Shown piece after piece: positions 18,833 through 57,284 of a DNA stretch of 64,000 nt (position 1 is its first letter; every line of letters begins with the position of its first letter). The DNA lies in the NCBI GenBank assembly GCA_013298125.1, contig JAAFJP010000015.1:1-64000 (forward strand), in the 5' to 3' direction. A program made the position numbers and the translations under genes. The DNA is from Cytophagales bacterium (lineage in GTDB: Bacteria > Bacteroidota > Bacteroidia > Cytophagales > Spirosomataceae). Below the pieces are notes generated by a model. That model saw nothing but the letters and a program-made list of their open reading frames with translations. It was not told where the DNA came from and did no database searches.

Positions 18833-18918
18833 ACCTCACCCCCGACCCCTCTCCTTCTGAGAGGGGAGTATTTGTCCGACTACCCCCCTCTCAGAAGGAG
18901 AGGGGTCGGGGGTGAGGT
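18833..18918. repeat. Perfect 34-bp palindrome, CCTCACC family
   Basis: Arms 18833-18866 and 18885-18918 are perfectly complementary, with an 18-base spacer. The outer ends read ACCTCACCCCCGACCCCTCT and its complement. It lies just upstream of gmk. Related elements occur at 20274-20389 and, inside ispE, at 56507-56624. Confidence 0.92.
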
Positions 18919-20185: not shown

Positions 20186-20273
20186 CCATAATCAGGTCTG
20201 AATACTATTACAAACAAACAACTTGCCAAGGATTTTTTAGGTCATTTTCCTGACAAAAAGGCATTATTTTAAT

Positions 20274-20389
20274 CTCACCCGAGCGTCGGTCGCCCCGACC
20301 CTCTCTCCGATTGAGAGGGGGAGTAAGTGGACGAATGCTCCCCCTCTCATTAAGGAGAGGGGGCTGGGGGCGACCGACGCTCGGGTGAG
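20274..20389. repeat. CCTCACC-family palindrome with imperfect arms
   Basis: The element begins CTCACCCGAGCGTCGGTCGC at 20274 and ends with the complement of that word at 20389. Its inner part has GAGAGGGGGAG and its complement, with several mismatches in the middle of the arms. It lies between the sigma gene and the asparaginase-like gene, a few bases from the latter's stop codon. The word GCGTCGGTCGCCCC is shared exactly with the element in ispE. Confidence 0.88.
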
Positions 20390-20397
20390 GTTTCTCG

Positions 20398-21527: not shown

Positions 21528-22151
21528 ATGAAAATAGTTTGCATATCCGACACTCACAGTCTCCAACACCACATGACGATTCCAGACGGTGATTTGTTGA
21601 TTCATGCGGGAGATGTTTCTTCAAGGGGGCGATTGGAGGAAATTGAGATGTTTAATGAATGGATGGGGTCGTTGCCGCATCGTCATAAAGTAGTCATTGC
21701 GGGCAACCATGATTTCTTTTTTGAGAAGTACCCCAAAGAAGCTAAACGCTTGATTACCAACGCCGATTACCTCAACGACAGCGGTATTTTGATTGAAGGA
21801 ATCCGTATTTGGGGTTCGCCAGTTCAGCCCTGGTTTTATGATTGGGCATTTAATCGCAAACGTGGCAAAGACATCCGCAAACACTGGGATTTAATTCCGA
21901 CCAATACCGATATTCTGATAACCCACGGACCACCATTTGGCATTTTAGATTCCACGGATAGAGGCGAAAAAGTGGGTTGTGAGGATTTGTTGGACGTTAT
22001 TCAGAATCGTGTACGCCCACAATTGCACGTATTCGGGCATATACATGAGGCGTATGGACAACAGCAAGTTGGGGAAACTTTATTTGTGAATCCTTCGATG
22101 GTGGACTTGGCGTATCGTCCTGTGCGTGAGGCGATTGTGGTGGAGATTTAG
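21528..22151 (+). CDS. Metallophosphoesterase
   Basis: The 207-residue calcineurin-like phosphoesterase holds the full set of metal-binding motifs: ISDTHS (residues 6-11), HAGDVS, AGNHDFF, THGPP and FGHIHE. It resembles the small single-domain enzymes that hydrolyse phosphodiesters or phosphomonoesters in the cytoplasm; the substrate is not evident. It stands alone on its strand and converges on the alpha/beta hydrolase gene, with a tandem-repeat hairpin between. Confidence 0.92.
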   Translation: MKIVCISDTHSLQHHMTIPDGDLLIHAGDVSSRGRLEEIEMFNEWMGSLPHRHKVVIAGNHDFFFEKYPKEAKRLITNADYLNDSGILIEGIRIWGSPVQPWFYDWAFNRKRGKDIRKHWDLIPTNTDILITHGPPFGILDSTDRGEKVGCEDLLDVIQNRVRPQLHVFGHIHEAYGQQQVGETLFVNPSMVDLAYRPVREAIVVEI

Positions 22152-22341
22152 TTATTGGTTTATTAGTTTATTGGTTTATTGGTTTATTGGTTTATTGGTT
22201 TATTGGTTTATTGGTTTATTGGTTTATTGGTTTATTGGTTTATTGTGAATCATTTTTTTAGATTTAAGTTCCATAAAATCAAGTATTTATGAATAAATTA
22301 CCTTTCTTCACCAATAAACCAGTAACCAATAAACCAATAAC
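22151..22341. repeat. Tandem 8-bp repeat (TTTATTGG) with inverted copies
   Basis: About eleven copies of TTTATTGG run from the phosphoesterase stop codon to about 22244. Inverted copies (CCAATAAACC words) lie at 22311-22341, just before the convergent hydrolase stop. The two blocks can pair to give a long hairpin between the convergent genes. The copy number is likely to vary by slippage. Confidence 0.85.
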
Positions 22342-38383: not shown

Positions 38384-38406
38384 TTTATTGTGGCTTTCGG
38401 CAGTCG

Positions 38407-38517
38407 GCTGTCAGCAATCGGCTTTCGGCTGTCAGCTATCGGCATTACCCCAGTTTCCTAATTTGTATTTACATAATGAACTTATAGCCGACTGCCGATA
38501 GCTGACAGCCGAAAGCC
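38407..38517. repeat. Palindrome with perfect 24-bp arms after the TonB receptor gene
   Basis: Arms 38420-38443 and 38494-38517 (GGCTTTCGGCTGTCAGCTAT plus four bases) are perfect complements. The right arm touches the receptor stop codon at 38518. Extra copies of the words CTGTCAGC and ATCGGC extend the left arm to 38393. Sixteen bases (38407-38422) recur in valS. Confidence 0.9.
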
Positions 38518-55393: not shown

Positions 55394-55585
55394 AACTTAG
55401 AGGTTTGGAGGATTAGAGTTTATCATCAAACCTTTTTGGTTCTTCTACGATTTATACAGAAAATTCATCTGATGTTAATTCCTATACAAATCAGAGTTGA
55501 ACCATTTTCTCTAATCATCTACACCTCTAAGTTTTGTTTGGTCAATTTCTCATGTTATTTCTCTAATCCTCTATACCTCTAAGTT
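55394..55585. repeat. Palindromic repeat of CTCTAATCATCT words between convergent genes
   Basis: The word at 55394-55418 (AACTTAGAGGTTTGGAGGAT plus five bases) has inverted copies at 55509-55533 and 55561-55585. The last copy ends one base from the stop codon of the oxidase gene at 55587. Confidence 0.82.
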
Positions 55586-56259: not shown

Positions 56260-57186
56260 TCACATTTTTCCTTGCCAAACTGAATACTCAGCAAAGGTTT
56301 CTTTCAAATCAATTTCTCTTGCAAAAATTCCAAAAACCGTCGAGCCAGAACCAGTCATACAAGCATATTCAGCTCCGTGTGTGTACAAGGCATTTTTGAT
56401 GTTTGCAAGGATTGGATATTTGGGTAAAAGATGACTCTCAAAATCGTTTTTTACTACAGCAACCCATTGATTTACAGGTTTTTGTAAAATTTCTTTTAGG
56501 TTTAGAACCTCACCCGAAGCGTCGGTCGCCCCAGCCCCTCTCCCGTGGAGAGGGGAGTTTTGGAGATAAGTAACTCCCCTCTCTACGGGAGAGGGGCTGG
56601 GGCGACCGACGCTTCGGGTGAGGTATCGAACTTTTACAGGCTTTACACCCGAGTACGCCTCAGCCGTTGAAATATGGATATTGGGATTGACCAAAACGAT
56701 ATATTTTCCAGATAAATCCAAATTTATTTCCGAAAACTCATCTCCTTTTCCAAAACAATATTGCGGACGATTTTGGACGAAGAAGGCACAATCACTGCCC
56801 AATTGTCGGGCGTAATTTTCCATCTGTTCGTTTGTAAGATGTAACTCAAAAAGCTCATTTAAGGTTTTAATCGTAAAGGCACAATCTGCAGAACCTCCGC
56901 CCATCCCCGCTCCTATCGGCACAACTTTATGGAGATGAATCATTACGGGAGGAATATCAAAGGTCTGTTTTACAAGGTGATAGGCTTTCAGACACAAATT
57001 CGTTTCAGGATTCCCTGGGATTGGAATACCTGTACTTTTAAATGAAAGTTTATCAGTGGGCAATATCTCCAAAACATCACTCCACCCCACTGGATAAAAG
57101 CAAGATTCGAGATTATGAAAGCCATCGGGGCGTTTTTCGGTAATGTGTAATCCGATGTTTATTTTGGCATTTGGGAAAGTTAGCAT
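56260..57186 (-). CDS. ispE: 4-(cytidine 5'-diphospho)-2-C-methyl-D-erythritol kinase with an in-frame palindromic insertion
   Basis: The enzyme of the MEP pathway phosphorylates CDP-methylerythritol with ATP. GHMP-kinase motifs are NAKINIGLHITEKRPDGFHN, PIGAGMGGGSADCAFTIKTL and MTGSGSTVFGIF. The product is 308 residues, about 40 longer than usual for the family. The extra part, residues about 188-227, is encoded by the 118-base palindrome at 56507-56624 and lies between the TAEAYSGVKP and KNDFE segments, a surface region. The reading frame is open across both arms. The essential nature of IspE in this pathway implies that the insertion is tolerated. Confidence 0.95.
   Translation of the reverse strand: MLTFPNAKINIGLHITEKRPDGFHNLESCFYPVGWSDVLEILPTDKLSFKSTGIPIPGNPETNLCLKAYHLVKQTFDIPPVMIHLHKVVPIGAGMGGGSADCAFTIKTLNELFELHLTNEQMENYARQLGSDCAFFVQNRPQYCFGKGDEFSEINLDLSGKYIVLVNPNIHISTAEAYSGVKPVKVRYLTRSVGRPSPSPVERGVTYLQNSPLHGRGAGATDASGEVLNLKEILQKPVNQWVAVVKNDFESHLLPKYPILANIKNALYTHGAEYACMTGSGSTVFGIFAREIDLKETFAEYSVWQGKM
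56507..56624. repeat. 118-bp palindrome inside ispE with 53-bp arms
   Basis: Arms 56507-56559 and 56572-56624 match at 52 of 53 positions around a 12-base spacer. The outer ends read ACCTCACCCGAAGCGTCGGT and its complement. Both arms lie fully inside the ispE frame and code for about 40 residues. The word GCGTCGGTCGCCCC is shared with the intergenic element at 20274-20389. Confidence 0.97.
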
Positions 57187-57217
57187 TGGGGAGAGGAAAG
57201 GAAAATGGAGGAAAGGA

Positions 57218-57275
57218 GAAATGGAAGAAAGGAGAAAGGAAAAATGATTTTTTTCTTTCTCCTTTCTTCCATTTC
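57218..57275. repeat. Purine/pyrimidine palindrome between ispE and accD
   Basis: The purine-rich arm 57218-57240 (GAAATGGAAGAAAGGAGAAA plus three) pairs with the pyrimidine arm 57252-57275. Further AGGAAAATGGAGG words extend the left side to 57190. It may act as a hairpin after accD. Confidence 0.82.
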
Positions 57276-57284
57276 CCCTTTTGA

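Follow-up and report, generated by a model that had tools for sequence, protein, structure and literature searches.

An in-frame palindrome in ispE of a Cytophagales bacterium appears to belong to a mobile element family whose larger members may carry a DUF559 nuclease

Introduction

How can a long palindrome lie inside the reading frame of ispE, where did it come from, and what could have carried it there? These questions are raised by a locus in a 64,000-nt stretch of DNA from a Cytophagales bacterium, hereafter the window. RPEs (Rickettsia palindromic elements) and intragenic REPs are already known (PMC2229807, PMC10969869, PMC3733652). RPEs are described as palindromes of 105–146 bp found both in intergenic DNA and, in frame, within conserved protein genes, and one tested product was reported active (PMC2229807). 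Herein, we compared the ispE palindrome and its family in the own genome of the window with Arcicella congeners, other relatives, and genomes across Bacteroidota.

Results

A stable hairpin within an open ispE frame

The features of the locus are as follows.

56507..56624, no strand assigned: palindromic element in ispE, in frame, with two long-type arms (GAAGCGTCGGTCG present)
56507..56559, + strand: left arm, 53 nt, with its own inner hairpin CCCCTCTCC-CGT-GGAGAGGGG
56560..56571, + strand: loop, 12 nt, varying from copy to copy
56572..56624, − strand: right arm, 53 nt, reverse complement of the left arm with one mismatch
56260..57186, − strand: ispE, 308 aa, extra segment at approximately residues 187–227

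The initial annotation had described a 118-bp palindrome within ispE with 53-bp arms and one mismatch, and an inverted-repeat search of the window recovered it at the same coordinates, with arms of 53 nt each that are 98% complementary and a loop of 12 nt. The hairpin had been called very stable, and RNA folding of the − strand agreed, giving −122.8 kcal/mol against −48.1 ± 4.0 for 200 shuffles. The reading frame is open over all 308 aa, palindrome included, and the ORF scores as ispE (TIGR00154, 155.2 bits; cut-off 138.7). Codon alignments revealed a net gain of 40 codons (120 nt) compared with a palindrome of 118 nt, bearing out the view that about 40 residues were added to an otherwise family-sized protein. 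In the AlphaFold2 model (mean pLDDT 86.9), residues 190–218 fall below 50, and we read them as a probable disordered surface loop.

The absence of stops in the arms had been taken as a strong constraint, which was overstated. When all six frames of 43 complete copies of the family were examined, 48% were open, compared with 42% in mononucleotide shuffles and 27% in random windows of the copies' own loci; the constraint is weaker than claimed because stop-freeness is partly a matter of base composition. A known RNA was rejected, all Rfam matches lying below gathering scores; most were microRNA-type hairpins, which in our reading is what any long hairpin gives. Other small inverted-repeat families were also seen in the window, at 38392–38517, 2010–2100, 22148–22340, 55394–55585, and 57197–57281.

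The site is empty in relatives

IspE was matched by 35 of the 38 relatives searched. All 35 matches were split in two, covering approximately residues 1–186 and 228–308 of the query, with the pieces overlapping or within about 50 nt of each other; the 40-residue block is therefore missing in each of the 35. In codon alignments, 7/7 Arcicella congeners have a linker of four residues where the own ispE has 44. A second collection gave the same picture among the best 80 of 554 relatives, in which the IspE match was 759–834 nt long in 80/80, compared with 924 nt in the own genome. The IspE motif span was 38–39 aa, compared with 78 aa in the own protein, as measured in 75 of these 80 loci, the other five being missed by the search expression. 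Aligning IspE from close relatives, the check suggested at the outset, thus found the element absent in every relative examined, and the insertion is polymorphic between species.

A family of doublet palindromes in Arcicella

Words shared with intergenic palindromes at 18833 and 20274 had been pointed out, and both belong to the same family.

18833..18918, no strand assigned: intergenic copy, short-arm type
20271..20392, no strand assigned: intergenic copy with long-type arms; the next ORF is 6 nt away

A genome-wide search for the arm, which had also been advised, found the motif 126 times in forward and 124 times in reverse orientation in the own genome (reversed-pattern control, 0), and the genome therefore holds about 125 doublet palindromes. 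Each doublet consists of ACCTCACC, in some copies a 13-nt block, then the inner hairpin CCCCTCTCC-nnn-GAGAGGGG and a variable loop, followed by the same parts inverted. Among the 43 complete copies, both arms were short in 22, both were long in 11, and 10 were mixed; short-arm copies measure about 85–93 nt. The inner stem was exactly complementary in 27/43 copies, a count on the low side since two rows were misread by the regular expression, whereas shuffles gave a mean of 9.2 and a maximum of 18. The arms of the palindromes covary. The first family set, 53 copies or parts, was picked by BLAST for likeness to the ispE copy and is hence biased. By DNA similarity, the family occurs in six of eight Arcicella genomes (weakly in G004) and is absent from G003 and G006; outside the genus, single weak matches were obtained in 3 of 31 other relatives searched.

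The flanks were compared for dyad symmetry past the element in 44 anchored copies (9 of the 53 could not be anchored). For 34 intergenic copies, 5.0 of 13 positions were paired, compared with 4.06 for mismatched flanks, and for 10 copies in genes the values were 5.2 and 3.3, respectively. This symmetry may reflect template switching or a preference for certain targets. A search for target duplication revealed no clear one at ispE and established no clean one elsewhere. At several other sites the net gain seems, in our reading, to be 10–50 nt below the element length, and loop residues would therefore be lost or different there.

Copies lie in frame within other genes

Across the genome, some 15 genes have short copies within their frame, about 20 in all. 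In the first set, 16 of 53 copies were in frame within 12 long ORFs, whose names rest on domain matches and partly on our own reading.

ispE, nitrate-reductase-like protein, GH106, exosortase, MutS2, and FUSC
CusA-type pump (3 copies), helicase (3 copies), and cryptochrome-related protein
DUF1549/1553 protein, THUMP-like protein, and a 1003-aa ORF

Later loci added a CusA paralogue, a 959-aa ORF (2 copies), and a 429-aa ORF. Counted as two-arm units, 15 of 79 distinct ones were in frame within ORFs, one of them doubtful; for the 40 later loci the count was 4/36, one of the four doubtful. Copies in short ORFs of 144, 104, and 179 aa were not counted as credible in-frame cases.

Host proteins were aligned at 13 sites in 10 genes with three to nine relatives per site; the alignment was complete at 12 sites and partial at the third cusA site. 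At 12/12 fully aligned sites the element peptide was absent from the aligned congeners and the insert lay in a loop of variable length. Genic copies occupy variable loops, they were inserted as whole units, and the frame continues through them. For the exosortase and the 1003-aa ORF, only the own genome was found among the matches listed. A Pfam scan of 30 proteins revealed no gene split by a copy among 14 neighbouring ORF pairs and two single ORFs at 16 copies, where five of the 14 pairs had at least one partner, and one of the two single ORFs, with no match at 1e-5.

Three CusA-type copies (L048:4601-4704, L307:2858-2943, and L119:2436-2491), in three genes of two species, lie at about one junction, which precedes the outer-membrane efflux domain, as if a single tolerant position had received independent insertions. 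In the pump of L048 and its relatives L089 and L091, the loop near own residue 430 holds another repeat family in frame, with peptides like AVGSRQLAIGG, and several repeat families therefore use one tolerant loop. In the narB-like loop of relatives L080 and L081, repeat-like peptides (FDVRYSIFDVGSSKP and similar) were seen where the own genome has the palindrome.

DUF559 nuclease domains lie between arms of the same family

DUF559 was found in four of eight Arcicella genomes. In the own genome, 2/2 DUF559 domains are enclosed by arms of the ispE-palindrome family and share the frame of a host ORF.

Host 1: isoleucyl-tRNA synthetase (IleRS), TIGR00392, 802 bits (cut-off 621)
Host 2: AddB-like nuclease gene, PDDEXK_1, the name being our reading

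The host frames run unbroken through arms and DUF559. In IleRS, the arms around DUF559 agree over 36 nt with one mismatch, and the site is empty in 7/7 congeners, with matches on both sides and two to five codons between them. The own genome, at 95.5% completeness, gave no second close IleRS match. The AddB-like site is empty in like manner in 6/7 congeners, the insert being common to the own genome and G007 (A. aurantiaca), in which an AddB-like ORF of 1199 aa holds an element, a DUF559 domain, and half an element in one frame. The AddB-borne DUF559 domains of the two species gave dN 0.23 and dS 2.0, the latter saturated. No intein or Hint profile was found when both host ORFs of the own genome, the G007 AddB ORF, and 10 embedded ORFs from the wider survey were scanned with Pfam. 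The DUF559 domains of G003 and G004 have no CCTCACC arms, and the G003 locus has a different inverted repeat. Two facts count against a tie between nuclease and palindromes: the own genome has two DUF559 copies compared with about 125 palindromes, and no DUF559 match was found in four of eight Arcicella genomes, among them G001, G002, and G005, all of which have short elements.

DUF559 and inverted repeats across Bacteroidota

DUF559 was present in 78 of 148 genomes. The 94 loci studied (five from the genus search, 29 from the phylum search, and 60 from the upper part of the listed matches) are not a random sample, and 92 remained after L213 and L223 were left out at contig edges. Inverted repeats joining the 300-bp flanks with a score of at least 12 were found at 56/92 loci, or 52/87 without the genus loci, compared with 0/173 displaced positions in the same loci and 18/600 positions in ispE loci. 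Most of these phylum repeats are REP-like (variants of CCCTCTCC...GGAGAGGG, or that sequence itself), and they are distinct from the Arcicella family. The domain was embedded in long ORFs at 24/92 loci, with hosts including LeuRS, MetH, HsdR, HsdM, a type ISP enzyme, and a DNA methylase. Such a repeat was seen at 15 of these 24; the other nine, including the LeuRS loci L207 and L209, have none at a score of at least 12 and count against the association.

The nuclease motif is conserved. Its residues E, D, E, D, G, H, and D are kept in 24/24 readable embedded domains, and the pattern D-F...E-x-D-G..H occurs in 24/24 embedded and 66/68 other DUF559 domains. Among PDB neighbours, DUF559 matched 3hrl (2.6e-21) and, weakly, 3r3p (E 0.19), a mobile intron protein that we take to be I-Bth0305I; such weak sequence kinship to a known mobile nuclease counts against a homing role. 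The arm motif was present in 35/78 genomes with DUF559 compared with 15/70 without it (p 0.003, uncorrected for phylogeny or genome size), and the latter 15 genomes count against a link.

In our reading, DUF559 lies in frame at the same LeuRS place in two genera (L207 and L209; L231 is also a LeuRS) and at one MetH place in two genera (L220 and L225). These common places may reflect insertions that are old and shared, or homing that returned to a single site.

Discussion

What the ispE palindrome is, and what moves it, can be approached by weighing several origins. It is extremely improbable that the 40 residues have long belonged to IspE in this lineage and serve its function. Such an origin would fit the intact frame, but the segment is missing from all congeners, the identical DNA family occurs in unrelated genes and between genes, and the 40 residues are predicted to be disordered; its absence from 35/35 relatives with matches and 80/80 further loci led to its rejection. 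Sequencing or assembly error as the source of the open frames was also rejected, because many genes, in two species, have frames that stay open across one to three copies each.

As to the mover, a Y1 (HUH) REP-associated transposase (RAYT) could drive the doublets as REPINs, with DUF559 a passenger caught between REPs, which we regard as unlikely. The inverted doublet, variable spacer, and compensatory arm changes match the REPIN architecture (PMC3116915), and the own genome has five PF01797 matches, RAYT-like in our reading, three of which are weak (24–33 bits). The element-free congeners G003 and G006 have the fewest Y1 matches, three each, and there are congeners with elements in which DUF559 gave no match. 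However, a pair of arms was found within 1.5 kb at 0/5 own Y1 loci, one of which has a single CCTCACC. Among the copies listed, the nearest to a Y1 gene in the own genome lies about 3.8 kb away (contig C4) and the next more than 20 kb away, and in G005 and G007 they lie far from the Y1 genes or on different contigs; REPINs, moreover, have been described outside genes, close to RAYT genes (PMC3116915). A MITE of a DDE transposase, or host repair or template switching with no dedicated enzyme, has little probability. The flank symmetry beyond the element (5.0 vs 4.06; 5.2 vs 3.3) and the covariation of the arms are compatible with template switching, but ispE showed no clear target duplication, and about 250 dispersed conserved arms together with a 540-bp ORF-bearing insertion would need more than arm correction.

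The ispE palindrome is almost certainly a mobile palindrome that inserts in frame, and the arms and DUF559 very probably form one mobile unit. We favour, with some reserve, the reading that the palindrome represents an in-frame mobile element in a non-autonomous form, lacking the DUF559 nuclease that the element otherwise carries; for DUF559 itself as the mobilizing enzyme, we consider the case evenly balanced. The unit would consist of a variable loop enclosed by a pair of inverted REP-like arms, and full-size members would carry in that loop the ORF of a DUF559 (Vsr-like, PD-(D/E)XK) endonuclease. Made as part of the host protein, the nuclease may cleave empty alleles or palindromic sites, and the element could then be copied in by repair, or by replication, across the hairpin. 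Spread would then resemble that of homing endonucleases, with no intron or intein to splice the insert out, and nuclease-less copies such as that in ispE would be mobilized in trans. Gene-breaking insertions would be lost, and in-frame ones in a tolerant loop, as in IspE, would survive.

More tentatively, these elements may represent a new class in Bacteroidota, in which a REP-armed, Vsr-like DUF559 inserts into genes (including those of aminoacyl-tRNA synthetases and methionine synthase), stays as an unspliced permanent host domain, and generates and mobilizes REP-like palindromes, some of them coding. The present lineage, which is free-living and from freshwater, offers about 125 copies, sites polymorphic between species, and a candidate enzyme between the same arms. 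If the proposal is true, a nuclease domain that was originally parasitic is part of host enzymes such as IleRS, LeuRS, and MetH, homing can follow a strategy that needs neither intron nor intein, and a domain of unknown function, DUF559, gains a role.

Comparison with known systems

The initial annotation had likened the ispE palindrome to RPEs and stressed its occurrence in Bacteroidota. The likeness stands as far as a mobile palindrome, in frame and absent in all relatives examined, is concerned; its novelty was overstated, because several other bacteria are reported to have in-frame intragenic REPs (PMC3733652). The initial annotation had missed the doublet build with its variable loop, the roughly 20 in-frame copies of the genome, and the DUF559 ORF between arms of the same family; the association of the palindromes with this nuclease is the new finding. 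In the open-access literature searched, we found no report that places DUF559 between REP arms or within the frame of such hosts; the DUF559 literature includes a Caulobacter Vsr-like protein (PMC12907096), and coding palindromes are also described in hairworm mitochondria (PMC6649704).

The family resembles RPEs and their Wolbachia counterparts in its in-frame insertion in conserved genes, absence in relatives, and additional intergenic copies, and RPEs also in being palindromic, with many copies of about 105–146 nt, although the short-arm copies of Arcicella are smaller (about 85–93 nt). This is a likeness of behaviour, drawn from descriptions of RPEs rather than from their sequences. Unlike RPEs, it belongs to another phylum and a free-living host, is a REP doublet with a variable loop, and has a nuclease ORF in its large forms. 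With REPINs or REP doublets (BIMEs) it shares two inverted REP units, a variable spacer, a hairpin, compensatory changes, and the occurrence of singlets; in contrast to them, no RAYT-type gene was found directly beside copies, a minority of copies lie in frame in genes, and DUF559 occurs between arms.

The GTAG/CGTC REPs of Opitutus terrae, Thauera, and Thioalkalivibrio are described as in-frame REPs and dimers in real proteins, the intragenic dimers coding for 20–30 residues with a proposed place in linkers or loops, and the CGTC REPs as lacking a known transposase (PMC3733652). The Arcicella family is like them in its in-frame, REP-type inserts within proteins and in loop placement, and differs in its end sequence ACCTCACC and its nuclease cargo, which the parts of that description drawn on here do not mention. 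As in EDxHD homing endonucleases (I-Bth0305I) and inteins, a nuclease lies in a host gene, motif residues are kept, the frame is open, and empty alleles exist; unlike in those systems, no intein profile was found around DUF559 in the ORFs scanned, the insert stays in frame, and REP-like arms enclose it.
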